Positions 2-7,981 of a stretch of DNA of 7,981 nucleotides are shown here, piece by piece; position 1 is the first letter of the stretch, and each line of letters begins with the position of its first letter. Position numbers and translations under genes: made by a program. The notes beneath the pieces are model-generated. The model did no database searches. It worked only from the letters and a program-made list of their open reading frames with translations, and was not told where the DNA came from. The stretch comes from Elusimicrobiota bacterium. Its GTDB lineage: Bacteria; CG03; SLGR01; PWQF01. The stretch spans positions 1-7,981 of the forward strand of contig PWOI01000206.1 in NCBI GenBank assembly GCA_003557485.1, given 5' to 3'.

Positions 2-1408
2 GAAGTTCGTGTGAGAATAAGGCGTGGAGAGAATCTCTATTGGAACGAAGAAGCTGAGGGTGGGGCTGACTGGGTGGAGGGAGCTGTTACTGCGTGGAAT
101 AAGGCCCAGCTTCATACCTCGACCTGGACTTATTCGTCCCCGGGGTGGGCCAACGGGTGGACTTACTATGTGTGGTCTTATGCCGTTGATGTTGCGACAA
201 ACACCGAAACCGTGGAAACCGAAAAGACATTTATATATGATGAAACGCCCCCGTCTTCAAAAGTTACCTCGCCTTCGGACGGAAGCTACCTGAGAGACGC
301 TTTCACTGCAGTTTCCGGAACATCAAAAGACGAAGAGACCGGTATCCAAGAGGTGAAATTCAGCTTAACATATATAAAATCCGGTACAACCTATTACTGG
401 GACACCATTAATTTTACTGAAGAAGAAAACTGGCTGAGCACAAACCACGGCTACCCCTACTGGGAAAGAACCACCGGAGGACTGCCGGCGGCCGGGAAAT
501 ATGAAGACGGGAGAGTTTATTACCTCGTATCCCGTGCGGCCGATACGCGCGATCGCGATGGAACTCTTGAACCCACCGACCCCGCCAGCCATCTTAATTA
601 CGAAAATCCCGCAGGAAGGGAAATATCCTTTATCTGGGACGTGGTTTCTCCTACATCGGCCATTAGCTATCCCGTTGATAGCGGATACATATCCGAGACA
701 GGAAATATAACCGGCGGCAGCTACGACGCAACCGGAGCGACCTATACCGTAACGGGGGAAATAGAAAAGGACGGTGTTGTTGAAGAAGTCTGGGTTAAAC
801 TCTGGAAACTGCAGGAAGGGGTTACGTACTACTGGGATAATTATAATTTAGACCCGGCAACCTGGACTGTTTCTGAGGCCAGGTCGCTTGCGGTACTTTC
901 GCCGGACGCTACAAGCTGGCACCTGCCGCATCCGGAGTGGGAAGCGATTAATTACAGGGCAAGCGTTCAGGCAAAAGACAAGGCCGGCAACTGGCAGATG
1001 GTTGTTACAACTATTTCATTTACTGGCGACTTTGAAGCTCCGGTAACCGAAATTACCCGTCCGGCTGACGGTGTAAATTATGATGTAATGAACAGGATAA
1101 CAGGTACGGCTGTTGATGATAATGAAATGCAGACCGTGATGGTAAAAATAATGAATGATACCGCTGACGACCCGGAGCAAAACTACTTCTGGTCCGGTTC
1201 CGAATGGGTGGAGGTCGAAGAGTGGCTTGAAGCAACCTGGGTATCCTGGCCGCATTGGAAATACGAGATAAGCGATCCTTCTTCAGCCTGGGGAGTCGGA
1301 AAACAATACCTTATTACTACTCATGGCATCGATATGGCAGAAAACAGAGAAAGCGCTGAAGAGGACGGCAGAAACCGCAACAGATTCGGTTTTTCCGCTC
1401 CGGCCCAG
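2..1408 (+). repeat. Class A array 1: four Trp-rich FN3/Ig-like domains (A1 partial to A4)
   Basis: Residues 1-469. My boundaries are A1 1-84 (N-terminal part lost), A2 85-217, A3 218-347 and A4 348-469, set by junctions such as FIYDETPP (77-84), FIWDVVSP (210-217) and FTGDFEAP (340-347). Each domain has an aromatic-W core motif: LYW (12-14), YYWD (131-134), YYWD (276-279) and YFWSGSEW (395-402). Evenly spaced further Trp residues follow, then a late strand such as 'SRAAD' (177-181) or 'AKDKAGN' (324-330). Tryptophan is about 5% of this array. A2 has a long insert where most domains have AGN (about 182-207). A4 ends in a basic/Asn-rich segment (RNRNRFGF, 457-464) that leads directly into the first class B domain. 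The pattern resembles Ig-like domains that close with 'DxAGN...YDTTPP' in many bacterial surface proteins. Fold assignment is by pattern only. Confidence 0.8.
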
Positions 1409-4400
1409 ACTTTTAAAATAGATATTAATACCAATCCCGTCGCGGGAATAAGACAAACGCTTACGGTAACGGCCTGGAATAACGAAGAAAGCGATACAGC
1501 TGCAGGGTACCAGGGGACAATACGCTTTGGGTCTCCTTCGGAAGCGGTTTACAGTATGATTCCTTCAAGTTATACGTTTACACCCGATGATGAAGGAGTA
1601 AAAACTTTCCTTGCGGGTGAATCTCAGGGCCCGGTATTTATGTCACCGGCGGATACTGTAAGTACATTCAGAGTGTACGATGACGATACCTATGGGGTGC
1701 CGGTATCTACTACTGTGAATATAAATATAAGGCCGGGCGCGCTCAACGACTTTATTCTTGAACAATTTCCGCCTGAAGAGTTGTTTGCCGGAGACCCCGG
1801 TGATATAAAGGTTACTGCAGTAGATGCGTACGGCAACATAAAAACGGATTACGAGGGCACAATAAGGTTTACCAGCAATGATCCGGCCGCGGTTTTTCCG
1901 GGGGATTATACGTTTACAGGCGAAAATAACGGTCAGGAGCTGTTTGCAAGCACTATTTCTTTCAGGACAGCAAACATCGGTACCGGCAATGAAAGTACCC
2001 CGTGGTACCTTCGCGTAAGAGACGCAGGTCCTCCGGCCGTAGAAAAAGATATAACCGGTATAATATGTTTTCCTTATGAATTTTCCGGTTACAATGTTTC
2101 AATGGATACCGGACCTTTTACCGCCGGTACGCCAAAAGATGCAACAGTAGAAGTTGTGGATGCTTACGGTAATCGCGTATCTACCGGGCTGTACCGCTAT
2201 ACTGGAACCGTAGAGTTTGAATCATCAGACGGCCAGGCTGTCCTTCCTGCAGATTATCAATTTACAGCGGGTTCCGGAGAGGATAACGGCCTGCGTGTAT
2301 TTACCAGTTCTGTAACCCTTAAGACTTTCGGATTTCAATCGGTTTCAGTAAAAGATACGGACTATCCCGGCAGGACAGGCCAGCAGGATGGCATAGATGT
2401 CACGCCGGATTCGGCAAGCAGTTTCAGGATTACAATGTCAACTAATGTTGTAGCCGGTCAGTATTATGACCTTACTCTTGAAGCTCTTGATCCCTACGGC
2501 AACATTGATACTAATTATAGTTCGGATGTGGATGCCCTGCAGTTTGAGGCCGTTAATGTGACCAATTCTGATTTTACGCTTGAATTTGCCACTTTTGAAG
2601 GAGAGGACGGTGTCCAGACTTTTGAAAACCAGGTGGCTTTAATGGCGCCTTCAGGAACGGGTAAATCAGTTAAAGTCACTGATACCGGAGCCTCTCCTGT
2701 GATAACAGGAGCGCAGACGGGTATACGGATTCACCCTTCACCGGCATCGACTCTTGTTGTTTTTGTAAGAGATTTAACCGAAACCGGAGCCGTGGAACTT
2801 ACGGCCGGCAGCTGGTATTCAATGAAACTTGTCGCCCGCGATCCTTACGGTAACATCGATATAAATTATGGGGAAGAGGTTAAATTCACCGCGCCAAATT
2901 CGGCTTATTCTGCGTTTAACGTTGACGGTGAAGGCGGCGACACCTTCCAGTTTACACCGGGTCCCACGGGAGAAGGAGGAAATGCCGGGCAGAAAACATT
3001 TGCCAGCGCGGTAAGACTGGGTGAGGCCGGGGCAAACAGGATAGTAAAGGCCTCATCTACCGTTTCGGGAGTATGGGGTCAGAAAGCGAACGTTAATGTT
3101 ATAGCAGGCGACCTTTACGAGTTCAGCGTTTCCGGTGTCAAAACTCCTCACACCGTGGAGGAACACCGGTCCTGGACAGTTGAAGCCGTGGATGAGTTCG
3201 GAAACAGGGTAACGGAATATGACGGGGAGGTCGGGTTTTCTTCCGGCGACGAAGAAGTCAGTTTTTTCCCGGCTGTTTACAGGTTCAGCGAATCTGACAG
3301 CGGGGTTAAGAAATTTGATGTGACAGTGTCAACCTATCTTGTTTTCAATTCAACCGGGCTTTTTTATATAGAAGCCAGGGATTATACAGAGGATAAATTC
3401 GGGAGGCAGGAGGATATACGCGTAGTAGGTAAACCGTTGAGCTCGATATCCCAGCATTCACCGGATTATTCACACTGGTCACAGGTTCCCACTATACAGG
3501 GAAGTGCTATTACACAACACTCTTCAGCTACACTAACTAAAGTTGATATAAATATAAAGAATGTAGATGAAGGAGAAGAAGGAATGTGGTGGAGCGGTTC
3601 GGACTGGGAAATGGTGAACAAGCACTGGATAACAGTGCTGACAACCGCCGGCGTAAATACCGCCGACTGGGATTATTCAATATCCCAGGCATACTGGCAC
3701 GACAATACCGAGTTCCTGATTGAGTCGCGCTCTCACGATAACCTGGCAGGCGTGCAGTCGGATACCGGGGAAAGGGGTTTTTATGTTGACAAGACCAGCC
3801 CGGATTCCTCCATAATAAATCCGGCCTGGAACGACCGCAAGAATGATTCTTTCACTAATATCACAGGAAACGTTGTGGACCTGGGCGCGCCGCACGCTTC
3901 CGGGGTTGATTACGTGGAAATAAGGATTAATAATCCTGACGGATATACCTGGGATGGTTCTACCTGGGTGGTAACCGTGGAGTGGGTTCTTCCCTCTATG
4001 ACCGGAGGGACGCCGCCGACCGGGTTTAACTACGACCAGGCGGCAGATGTGGACTGGCAGGACGGCAGCGAGTATCACATTTACTCGCGCGCCTACGACA
4101 GCGCTTACCCGCAGGCCAATGTTGAAGCAGAGGCCAATTACAGCCATCGCAAGTTTACTTACGACATAACTCCGCCTACGGCATCAGTGACTTCCCCGTC
4201 ATACGGCAGCGGCCGTAATTCTCTCAGCTCTATTACCGGTGCCGCAGTAGATCCGGGTAATGTGTCAGCTATAACAGAAGTATCCCTGGTTATAAGAGAC
4301 GAGACTGATGATACCTTCTGGTCAGCTTCCGGATGGGGTGGTACCTGGGACTGGCTTGTAGCGTCAGGAGGAGCAAGCTGGACTCTTGATGTTTCGGGGA

Positions 4401-7400
4401 TAAACTTCAGCGACGGACACGAATACAAGGTTTGGGTCAGGGCCGAAGACAAGGCAGGAAATGTAACACCGGTTTCCTCCGGCGATATAACCGGAGGCGA
4501 TAACTACCATAGCTGGTTTTACTTTGACCAGGAGCCGCCCGAAGCTTCTATAACTTATCCCGAAGACGGAGGTTTCTATAAAGAAAATAAACTCGAATAT
4601 ATTTCCGGAACAGCCGCCGACAACAATGCCGATGCAACGCCAAGAGAAGTAGATTATGTCAGAGTCAATATTTTTGACGCCTCTGAAGTTTATACCTGGA
4701 ATGGAACAGGATGGACCAGTGGAACACACGATACCCAGGCCTTCTGGCGCCCAGCCCAGTATACCCCCTACTATGGGGGCGCATCTTCGGGGACCTGGAC
4801 TTATCCGGGCGATGCAGGAGATGGTGTTCTTTCCTGGGATGATACCCGCTCGTACATAGTAAAAGTAAGGGTATATGACAAAGCGGGCAACTATGATCTT
4901 TATGCGGATACCGTTTCTTTTACATACGACGAATACTATGCAGGGCCGCCGGAAGCCCCGGATTCTTTGGTTGAATCACCGGCAGACGGAGATCATCTTG
5001 ATCAAACTCTTACTCACATATCAGGAAGTGCCTATGACGATGTTCAGCTTGACACAGCTGAAACAGTGAAAGTCAAGATATGGCGCCGCGATACGGGACA
5101 GTTCTGGACAGGTTCGGGATGGGGCGCGGAAGGCTGGCTCTCTGCTTCAGGTGTGGCGAGTTGGGAGAGGAATGTGGATCATGCGCTGTTCTGGGTTGCA
5201 AATACTTCCTACAGCGTTATTTCGAGAGCGAAGGACGCAGCGGGCAACTACGAAAAAATATTCACCACTGTAACCTTTGTATATGACCCGACTCCGCCCA
5301 CAGCCCAGCTGACGTATCCGCCGGTTGCCCCTAATAACTACATAGCTTCAATGGAAAAACTCCGCGGAACCGCATCTGACCAGCCGCCCGGCCGGGTAGA
5401 AGAAGTTTTTGTGAGGATACACAGGGAAAATAATAACGAATACTGGGATGATTCTCTGGGATGGGTCGGGGAATCTGATTCCTGGAACGAAGCGGAACTG
5501 AGCTCGGCTGCCACATACTGGACTTTTGTTCCTACGGTAGATTGGGATGAAGACGATGGCCTCTACAGCGTGAATGTACTGCCCAGGGATAAAGCCGGCA
5601 ATTACGCTCTTTCTTTTGCCACTTATACGTTCCGCGCCGATTTAAGCCCGCCGGAAACGCACCTTACGGAACCGGTTTTTGATAATTACGACAGCCTGCC
5701 GGCAATAAAAGGCACATCGCAGGATAACGGAGTACTGAGTGAGATACTGATTGATATAAGAAGAAACGAATCGCCTTACCACAGATGGGATAACGAAAAT
5801 TCACAGTGGATAGATACTTCGGACGGTCCTTACTGGAACCAGATAAGCGCCTCCGGGTCGTGGCAGTTTGATATAAACTATCCTACAAACTGCTGGAGCG
5901 CAGGCGTGCAGTACCGGGTGACAGCCCTTGCTGTTGATATAGTTGGAAATACAGATGAAGTATCTGCGCCGCAGAACAGGAGAAATTTTACATTCAGAAA
6001 TCCGGCGACAACATTTATTATAGATCTTATAGGCTCTCCGGCCGCCGGGCAGAGCTATAATATTACAGCGACCGCCTGGAACCAGGAACATTCACAGCCG
6101 GCGATGGCTTACAGGGGACAGGTTGAATTTGAGACATCCGACGCCTATGCTACCTATCCTTCTTCTTACCAGTTTACAGCTTCTGACCAGGGTGAAAAGA
6201 CATGGGAAGGCGGTATGACTTTCAGGACTTCCGGTGAACAAACGCTGACAATCAGAGATATGGATAATGTTGAAATTTCAACTACCGTTTCAAGGACGGT
6301 AATACCCGGGTCTTTGGATTATTTTAGTATCGAGCTTACCCCGGATCCCGTTTCGGAGAACGTAACCGCGGGTCAGCTTCTTGACCTGGAAGTTGCAGCC
6401 CGTGATGTGCACGGTAATATTGATGATTCTTTTACCGGAACTGTGGATTTTTACAGCAGCGATAGCGAGGCAGTGTACCCGCCCTCGTGGTATTTTGCAC
6501 CGGAGGATAATGGTTTCCGGCAGGCTTCCGGTACCGTAGCATTCAGAACATCCAACCTTGGTCCCGGCAATGAACCGGGCGCCTGGCTTATGAGAGCCAC
6601 TCACGGCGGAGTAGTAAGCGAAAAGACAGGCATAAGGATTTACCCTGCCCACCTGACCTATGAGCGGCCGGATACGCAGCAGCGCGGGAGTTTTGCGGTT
6701 GCAGTTGACCCAGGTCCGCATACAGCCGGGCAAGAATATCACGATATTACGGTAGAGGCCCTTGACGCTTACGGGAACCGGCTTTCTACCGGTACCAGTA
6801 TATACTCCGGGGAAATAAGGTTTACATCCTATGCTGATGGCGGAGATGAACTGTCAAGAACCCGTTTGGGAGGAGAATTGCTGCCGGTGTTCTATACGTT
6901 CACAACGGGTCCCGGCGGAGATAACGGGTTCCGCGTATTTACGGCAACTGTTGATTTCCGGAGGACCTCCGTGAATGCCTGGATAGAGGTGAACGATACA
7001 GTTCATACAAGCCGGACCGGACGGATGGACGGTATTACAATAAATCACGCCGAAAGAGACGTTTATGAAGTTGAAATGTCAACGAATGTCCAGGCGGGCG
7101 CCGTGTCCGACATTACTCTCAGGGCAGTGGATTCCTACGGGAACCTGGTTACCAATATTGACCCGCCTGACGAACTGGCTTTTTATACCAATATTCCTCC
7201 GGATTACTTCAGTCTTCCGGCAGCTGGTGCGGAGGAGCTTTCCGGCGGAGAGATTACATTTACGGAATCGGTGACCCTGAACAGGTCTTCCTGGACTACC
7301 GGAGGAGATCTGCGCAGCCCCTGGTATGTAGGGATACGCCATAACGATACCGAACAGTTTCCGCATTTAACCGGAGAACAGACCGGTATAAAGGTGCATC

Positions 7401-7981
7401 CGGGTCCCGCAAGCAATTTCAGCGTAACGGGCATACCCACGCCTGCCGATGCGGGACAGCCTTATACTATTTATGTTGTAGCCCGTGATGAGTTCAACAA
7501 CCGGGACGTTTATTACACAAGCACAATTACATTCAGATCAAACAACGCTGACTGGACGGTCAGCCCGGCAACATATAACTTTATACCGATTAACAAGGGG
7601 AGGAAGAGTTTTGAAGCGACGTTAAGGGAAGCCGGTCAGAATTTTTATCTTGAGGTATTCCAGAGTGTTCCTTATAATGCGGATATAGCAGGAAGGCAGG
7701 AGCCAATCAGCGTAACGCATGCATCGTTTCACAACTTTTCAATATCCGGCATAGCTGAACAGCAAAGGGTGGGGTATGTCTCTCAAAATGTTCAGGTTGC
7801 GGCGCGTGACCCACATAATAACATATATCGGGACTATGTTTCTACGGTGACATTCAGTTCTCCTTCCGGGGCGCTTATAGACGTCACTCCTTTACAGTAT
7901 AAATTTAAGCCGGAAGATCAGGGAGTGGCTTACTTTGATGTCCAGATGCATACTCCCGGTGAGCATACTGTGAGAGTTTAC
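2..7981 (+). CDS. Giant multi-domain Ig-like repeat protein, probably extracellular adhesin/fibre (partial at both ends)
   Basis: A single frame is open for 2,660 codons; base 1 is the third base of the preceding codon and the last codon ends exactly at the window edge. The translation is a string of about 23 beta-sandwich-type domains in two classes: Trp-rich FN3/Ig-like domains (residues 1-469 and 1144-2003) and invasin/Big_1- or filamin-like domains (470-1143 and 2004-2660). I see no transmembrane segment, signal peptide, catalytic motif, RTX nonapeptides, dockerin or sorting signal. Only two cysteines occur (689 and 1964), and the sequence is rich in Asp, Glu, Thr, Ser and aromatics, as is usual for exported repeat proteins. 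By analogy with invasin-type and giant bacterial surface proteins, I infer an extended stalk or adhesin displayed outside the cell. Ligand, anchor and secretion route cannot be read here because both ends are missing. Nothing about operon or regulation is visible. The coding call is very secure; the role is an inference. Confidence 0.95.
1043..2749 (+). repeat. Supermodule copy 1 (A4-B1-B2-B3-B4)
   Basis: Residues 348-916 form the first copy of an ordered five-domain unit that recurs about 4.6 kb downstream. Markers, in order: RNRNRFGF...TF at the A-B boundary (457-471), TAWN (490-493), FRTANIGTGNE (654-664), DAYGNRVSTG (720-729), DNGLRVFT (761-768), MSTNVVAG (812-819) and TGAQTGIRIHPSPAS (902-916). 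Each marker has a counterpart at the matching position of copy 2 and not in the neighbouring domains of copy 1. The unit may extend upstream into A1-A3, where pairing with A8-A10 is plausible but weaker. Confidence 0.7.
1409..3430 (+). repeat. Class B array 1: six invasin/filamin-like Ig domains (B1-B6)
   Basis: Residues 470-1143. Boundaries: B1 470-580, B2 581-694, B3 695-806, B4 807-916, B5 917-1037, B6 1038-1143. The shared pattern is an 'AG' turn, then a 'VxAxDxYGN' strand (VTAVDAYGN 604-612, VEVVDAYGN 716-724, LEALDPYGN 826-834, LVARDPYGN 943-951, VEAVDEFGN 1060-1068). Then come 'YxGTxxFxS', a 'YTFT' strand with D/E-x-G, 'FRT'-like and 'VxD' strands, and a linker such as 'TGIRIHPSPAS' (906-916). 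B1 departs from the consensus, with TAWNNEE (490-496) in place of the YGN strand. B5 carries a Gly-rich loop (976-996). The layout matches the bacterial Ig-like Big_1/invasin and filamin-repeat style; these typically form rigid extracellular rods. Trp is rare here (5 in 674 residues), in sharp contrast to the flanking arrays. Which Pfam family fits best is uncertain. Confidence 0.8.
3431..6010 (+). repeat. Class A array 2: seven Trp-rich FN3/Ig-like domains (A5-A11)
   Basis: Residues 1144-2003. Boundaries: A5 1144-1267, A6 1268-1392, A7 1393-1513, A8 1514-1650, A9 1651-1766, A10 1767-1884, A11 1885-2003. Junctions are FYVDKTSP (1260-1267), FTYDITPP (1385-1392), FYFDQEPP (1506-1513), FVYDPTPP (1759-1766) and FRADLSPP (1877-1884). 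Core motifs are MWWSGSDW (1195-1202), YTWDGSTW (1315-1322), FWSASGW (1439-1445), YTWNGTGW (1564-1571), FWTGSGW (1701-1707), YWDDSLGW (1814-1821) and RWDNENSQW (1928-1936). 'DKAGN' or 'DAAGN' is present in A7 (1483-1487), A8 (1626-1630), A9 (1744-1748) and A10 (1863-1867). It is replaced in A5, A6 and A11. About 40 Trp occur in 860 residues. A11 contains one of the protein's two cysteines (1964). A11 ends with NRRNFTF (1992-1998) before the next class B run, echoing the end of A4. Confidence 0.8.
5654..7414 (+). repeat. Supermodule copy 2 (A11-B7-B8-B9-B10)
   Basis: Residues 1885-2471 repeat the markers of copy 1 in the same order: NRRNFTF...TF at the boundary (1992-2005), TAWN (2024-2027), FRTSNLGPGNE (2181-2191), DAYGNRLSTG (2255-2264), DNGFRVFT (2307-2314), MSTNVQAG (2359-2366) and TGEQTGIKVHPGPAS (2457-2471). 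Offsets from copy 1 are 1,534, 1,534, 1,527, 1,535, 1,546, 1,547 and 1,555 residues, so spacing is nearly constant with small loop-length changes. Codons differ even where residues agree; for example TAWN is acg gcc tgg aat in copy 1 and acc gcc tgg aac in copy 2. This means an old duplication rather than a recent or assembly-made one. Confidence 0.7.
6011..7981 (+). repeat. Class B array 2: at least six invasin/filamin-like Ig domains (B7-B12, last partial)
   Basis: Residues 2004-2660. Boundaries: B7 2004-2104, B8 2105-2217, B9 2218-2353, B10 2354-2471, B11 2472-2575, B12 2576 to beyond the window. Signature strands are TATAWN (2022-2027), VAARDVHGN (2131-2139), VEALDAYGN (2251-2259), LRAVDSYGN (2373-2381), VVARDEFNN (2492-2500) and VAARDPHNN (2599-2607). 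In the last two the Gly of 'YGN' is replaced by Asn. The 'YxFT' strand with a following D-x-G is clear in B7 (YQFTASDQG, 2056-2064). B8 carries 'FRTSNLGPGNE' (2181-2191). B9 is the longest domain (about 136 residues), with an extended loop around 2277-2296 before its YTFTTG strand. Trp is about 1%. The order of private motifs repeats that of B1-B4, so this array looks like a diverged copy of the first. Confidence 0.8.

Follow-up and report, generated by a model that had tools for sequence, protein, structure and literature searches.

Related giant proteins

Multi-domain super-repeats are known from the A-band of titin, where they consist of Ig/Fn3-type domains and have grown by recursive duplication of the super-repeat (PMC10665226). 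The SprB-type gliding adhesins of Bacteroidota are very large, repetitive proteins with type IX export, an outer-membrane shuttle and a proton-driven motor (PMC8986121, PMC12618676). In Flavobacterium, type A cargo is served by a single PorV, while the genes of type B adhesins are often followed directly 3' by a cognate SprF-like gene (PMC12618676). Giant open reading frames have also been described from uncultured Omnitrophota, with a proposed function in adhesion or as a coat; many of them have membrane helices, and the giant genes of the class Velamenicoccia are poorly conserved (PMC10066038). In Apilactobacillus kunkeei, the proteins Giant1-5 carry a signal peptide, a long repeat region and repeated C-terminal domains (PMC12863079).

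The locus described here encodes part of a giant Ig-like protein from another uncultured bacterium. By architecture, the titin A-band super-repeats are its nearest kind, since both have a multi-domain super-repeat in which domains at equal positions are more alike than neighbours (PMC10665226). Unlike titin, however, the present protein is bacterial, the 13 domains of its unit belong to two Ig-like families, the units number only about four, no partner lattice is known, and in-register hybrids occur between units. With SprB-type adhesins it shares size, repetitiveness and putative type IX export, whereas it has a type A-like sorting domain, a PorV-family shuttle and nearby genes for MotA/MotB and FliF/FliG-TPR, and any movement is hypothetical. 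In contrast to the Omnitrophota proteins, its domain order is conserved across orders. The A. kunkeei proteins resemble it in overall plan, but the cited part of that account describes single-level repeats, mostly of other folds, and reports no multi-domain super-repeat (PMC12863079). We consider it quite likely that the protein as a whole combines type IX export, a 13-domain super-repeat, in-register recombination between units and a role as stalk or adhesin.

Domain organization of the window

The window (the whole 7,981-nt stretch of DNA analysed) makes up contig C103 of a draft genome of 2.07 Mb that is 86.6% complete (G000; G, C and L numbers denote genomes, contigs and loci). It contains a single open frame of 2,660 codons, open at both ends, and two larger ORFs are also present on the minus strand. 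The frame encodes two tandem families of Ig-like domains in the order A1-A4, B1-B6, A5-A11, B7-B12 (Table 1). Among Pfam models, Big_13 gave the strongest match to the window (31.1 bits, cut-off 27), and all others fell under their cut-offs. Tandem Repeats Finder found nothing in the window, because the copies are too diverged. Compared with its relatives, the window is the K1-A7-K2 segment of a giant protein (K1-K4 being the blocks of B domains), with a hybrid second block.

Table 1. Features of the window (nucleotide positions) and neighbourhoods of the giant gene's C-terminus (locus positions)
Feature	Position	Strand	Remark
Putative internal segment of one giant surface protein	2..7981	+	whole contig C103
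A1-A4	2..1405	+	Ig-like A domains preceding block K1
A3	656-1045	+	pairs with A10
A4	1046-1405	+	pairs with A11
B1	1406..1744	+	K1 position 1, partner B7
B2	1745..2083	+	K1 position 2, partner B8
B3	2084..2416	+	K1 position 3, partner B9
B4	2417..2746	+	K1 position 4, partner B10
B5	2747..3115	+	K1 position 5, without clear partner within the window
B6	3116..3439	+	K1 position 6
A5-A11	3440..6007	+	seven A domains, in-order 1:1 with a1-a7 (K1-K2 interval of relatives)
B7-B9	6008..7057	+	second block, first half, K1/K2 type
B10-B12	7058..7981	+	second block, second half, K4 type; B12 cut by contig end
G000:C84 neighbourhood	L106:12798 to L146:10350		
G002:C65 neighbourhood	L107 and L147		

A repeat of 13 domains

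An earlier note on this DNA had proposed an order-conserved duplication of a multi-domain supermodule with a period of about 4.6 kb. When the domains were compared with one another, an offset of 13 domains gave a mean Z of 12.2 (next best offset 6.2), and DNA self-matches of about 60% lay at offsets of 4602-4665, apart from a shorter one at 4581; both bear the proposal out. The five pairs named at that time (A4/A11, B1/B7, B2/B8, B3/B9, B4/B10) are all reciprocal best matches, as is A3/A10, which carries the pairing one domain further upstream, to nt 656 (Z 10-22 for the six pairs). B1-B4 share 38-45% identity with their partners, while the mean among B domains within a block is 30%. All six motifs held to be private to these pairs are present, and five occur exactly twice, 1527-1555 residues apart; the sixth, TAWN, is found in A1 too (residue 30) and is thus not private.

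Among the possible pairings of B1-B6 with B7-B12, the native order ranked 2/720, and the order with B6 paired to B11 ranked 1/720. B5/B11 and B6/B12 show no clear pairing, because the second block is a hybrid according to the phylum-wide tree. A one-domain shift, as might be read from the B6/B11 pairing (Z 12), was rejected since B6 and B11 fall in different position clades. The second copy pairs with the first for B1-B4/B7-B10, but it is a mosaic of two units and no simple partner.

Layout of the giant protein in relatives

A first contig scan with the whole window as query found no relative. With the B block as query, matches at E < 1e-20 were obtained in seven of the 16 genomes examined from this small candidate phylum, all of which are draft MAGs; the deposited names are Elusimicrobia bacterium HGW-Elusimicrobia-2, Elusimicrobia bacterium GH52, Caldiserica bacterium B21_G15 and bacterium 01_128. 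When the contigs of these genomes were parsed into domains, a common layout emerged. An N-terminal region and A domains are followed by K1-A7-K2-A15-K3-A7-K4, after which come 38-58 A domains and a single B, a run of 14-17 C domains, more B-like domains, a second family of repeats and the C-terminus. The complete K1-K4 order in G004 was read over three overlapping contigs (overlaps of 95% identity over 587 bp and 100% over 119 bp). In G008, an exact 69-bp contig overlap gives a continuous frame from K2 to the stop codon of about 17,200 aa, and the total reaches about 20,400 aa with contig C88, taking C88 and C42 as joined. By analogy with these relatives, three separate contigs of the window's genome (C103, C135 and C84) would be parts of one gene; the N-terminus of the giant gene was not found in that genome (86.6% complete).

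The search for further copies on the flanks, proposed with the original repeat, thus found its answer in the contigs of relatives, where the unit of seven A and six B domains is seen about four times, at conserved places. The suggestion that the whole protein might be a chain of units of about 1.5 kilo-residues holds for these N-terminal units only, because one interval has 15 A domains and the rest consists of the A array, the C array and the C-terminal region.

Several further observations were made on these contigs. G013:C5 (L076:11835-18950) has an N-terminal IPT/TIG array ahead of the A domains, with 11 stretches over threshold. Close to the C-terminus, repeats of about 130 aa form another family (L077:3-2087 on the minus strand, and relatives), which is present in 10 of the 16 genomes and has no Pfam match. 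Beyond the phylum, distant relatives of the B block occur in a Bacteroidales MAG (L085, 28% identity) and in a 9-Mb genome (G043:C90, 35%). G014:C141 (L067/L068) is 99.97-100% identical to contigs of G012 (L071/L072), and G014 also has its own diverged copy (C124, C276), so either mixed strains or bin contamination may account for the double copy.

Age and growth of the unit

On a tree of 126 B domains from seven genomes, block position changes 9 times, compared with 81 times when labels were shuffled. B domains across the phylum thus group by position, not by block, as the domain tree suggested in the earlier note was meant to reveal, and its view that the protein grew by copying blocks, not only single domains, is upheld. 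The A domains agree: A5-A11 match a1-a7 singly and in order, the A runs before K3, before K4 and after K4 correspond (b12-b15, c4-c7, q4-q6), and c1 corresponds to q1 and a1. Since the A runs match and the B domains form position clades, the unit comprises seven A and six B domains and is older than the split between the orders. These comparisons give strong support to block copying, which is old and phylum-wide.

According to the proposed mechanism, a unit of seven A and six B domains (about 1.5 kilo-residues) in the N-terminal part of the protein would have been duplicated before the lineages of the phylum diverged, giving about four units, K1-K4, and traces of a fifth. Each position may then have diverged under purifying selection (dN/dS among close relatives is 0.11-0.20), which would leave same-position domains more alike than neighbours. 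Later in-register recombination between units would have led to the loss of whole units or the formation of hybrid blocks.

The hybrid second block

In the tree of positions B1-B3, most K1 and K2 blocks form one group with both blocks of the window, and K3 and K4 form another with the long K1 of G002 (99/97). At positions B4-B6, the second block of the window is instead placed in a clade of K4 and G002's third block (100/99). AU tests rejected a union of the second block with K4 for B1-B3 (p 1.1e-9) and with the window's first block for B4-B6 (p 6.9e-7); these p values are somewhat optimistic because the groups were named after an earlier tree had been seen. The best matches of single domains agree with this split. 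The second block is accordingly a hybrid of K2 and K4 type with its join after the third domain, between B3 and B4 positions, and we infer a recombination boundary near 7057/7058.

Other genomes show further in-register changes. In G012, the near-identical G014:C141 and G013, a single block is followed directly by A15, and in G002 one unit is missing between K3 and K4; each of these losses amounts to 13 domains. In G014:C124, the stretch from K1-B4 to a5 is replaced in register by its K3/c1-c5 counterparts, with length unchanged.

These changes bear on how the units arose and how the hybrid was formed. Single-domain duplications combined with position-dependent selection might mimic a copied block, and the long A array does show gains and losses of single domains, visible as drifting reciprocal-best offsets; yet several neighbouring positions keep their order from unit to unit and from genome to genome, and the losses seen are of entire 13-domain units in register, so we regard growth without any block duplication as very improbable. 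Still less credit is given to the idea that units and hybrids are artefacts of short-read assembly. It draws on the fact that every record is a fragmented MAG with contigs ending within the gene, but exact direct repeats in the window reach no more than 13 bp, and those in the further contigs of the giant gene that were tested do not exceed 30 bp, so that k-mer assembly cannot merge units and collapse is excluded; moreover, independent assemblies show identical architecture. Given true recombination between block-copied units, the K2/K4-type join could stem from a K2-to-K4 deletion of 34 domains or from gene conversion that kept the intervening units. Gene conversion is a serious candidate to which we give somewhat less than an even chance: the replacement of K1(4-6) and a1-a5 in G014:C124 sets a precedent at constant length, and the contig of the window stops inside B12, with the sequence beyond lying outside the window; however, true unit losses occur in other genomes, and K2(4-6), K3 and K4(1-3) were not found elsewhere in the window's genome, which is only 87% complete.

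Repetition in this bacterial giant protein is organized on two levels, as in titin, with an order kept across the orders of a phylum. Because this order is kept and recombination edits it in register, the growth of the giant gene can be read unit by unit.

Fold, and probable export and surface role

The predicted structure of A4-B1-B2-B3 (pLDDT 91.2) is all beta and composed of beta sandwiches. Its best solved match is the Ig-like domains of the adhesin FdeC (Z 13.4, rmsd 8.7, 290 residues), and further adhesin stalks appear lower in the list of structures, amid many Ig-like chains. The top Foldseek matches, complement C3 and macroglobulins, were set aside, as their rmsd exceeds 30 and they reflect only a chain of sandwiches. 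The beta-sandwich stalk fold is thus held in common with invasin, intimin and FdeC, whereas the present protein is far longer and is apparently exported by means of a C-terminal sorting domain; no N-terminal barrel domain was listed when the N-terminal pieces of five relatives were scanned with Pfam. The N-termini in G002, G004, G008 and G013 are hydrophobic as judged by eye.

The type A sorting domain of type IX secretion (TIGR04183, cut-off 23) was matched by the C-terminus in G000:C84 (28.3 bits) and G002 (23.3 bits), and just below the cut-off in G008 (22.5 bits). An NCBIfam scan of three C-termini listed type A and no type B sorting model. Each of the 16 genomes has PorV-family members that score above cut-off, the window's genome as many as 26; SprA-like proteins were found in 15 genomes, all below the curated cut-off. 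For PorU the matches were sub-threshold only, and the search for GldL gave no match, nor did it in the control genomes. Taken together, the sorting domain, PorV and the SprA-like proteins are best read as pointing to type IX export, the route by which the giant protein would be secreted. Ig-like beta sandwiches make up almost the entire protein, and by our estimate some 165 domains of about 4 nm each would give a filament of roughly 0.7 micrometre. Most likely it serves as a stalk or adhesin of great length on the cell surface, held by its C-terminal type IX sorting domain, with location and adhesion deduced from its predicted parts; no ligand-binding domain was identified in the giant protein.

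PorV-family genes lie about 100-500 bp 3' of 13 of the 17 sorting-domain genes listed in G003 and of 6 of the 13 in G002, an arrangement that looks like one shuttle per cargo.

Motor genes downstream of the C-terminus

In G000:C84, the C-terminus of the giant gene is followed first by another large protein, which has FG-GAP repeats and matches the sorting domain weakly, and then by PorV, PorV-TPR, FliG-TPR, a 1,302-aa protein, MotA and MotB. The order in G002 is giant C-terminus, PorV-TPR, FliG-TPR, a 1,301-aa protein, MotA and MotB, and the same neighbourhood is found in G003, G004 and G005 as far as the contigs extend. The FliG-TPR fusion of G000:C84 combines FliG_M/FliG_C with TPR, and there is an additional match to the C-terminal domain of FliF in G012 and, weakly and below the cut-off, in G002. 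A fusion that is complete or truncated at the end of a contig is present in 12 of the 16 genomes; outside the phylum, only two genomes (among 290) match over most of its length. By eye, MotB keeps the aspartate in its membrane helix. FlhA was detected in none of the 16 genomes of the phylum, with positive controls. MotA/MotB and FliF/FliG-TPR without detected FlhA may point to a non-flagellar use of stator and switch, which is directly testable.

One tentative reading is a motor-driven adhesin, in which a non-flagellar MotA/MotB motor would reel the giant protein or move it over the surface. Its parts, to be assigned with equal reserve, would be the MotA/MotB, FliF/FliG-TPR fusion and PorV-TPR encoded just 3' of the giant C-terminus. 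The gene order in G000:C84 and G002, in part also in G003, G004 and G005, speaks for it, as do the FlhA result, the MotB aspartate and the near confinement of FliG-TPR to the phylum. Proximity is not function, however, and in G012, of a second lineage, the cluster of motor genes is found away from the giant gene; in G001, G009 and G011 FliG-TPR is present but no giant gene was detected, and the reverse holds for G010. The sorting domain is of type A, which in Flavobacterium fits static anchoring or release (PMC12618676). Since the co-occurrence of fusion and giant gene is incomplete, the motor-driven adhesin is put forward as a hypothesis, and an unlikely one. At the same low estimate, a non-flagellar surface machine can be imagined, in which a MotA/MotB stator would act on membrane-bound FliF/FliG-TPR, with PorV-TPR as outer-membrane link to a type IX Ig filament of 20,000 residues.

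In G005:C124 (L148:133-4262), two histidine kinases and a PilZ-domain protein are encoded directly 5' of PorV-TPR/FliG-TPR.
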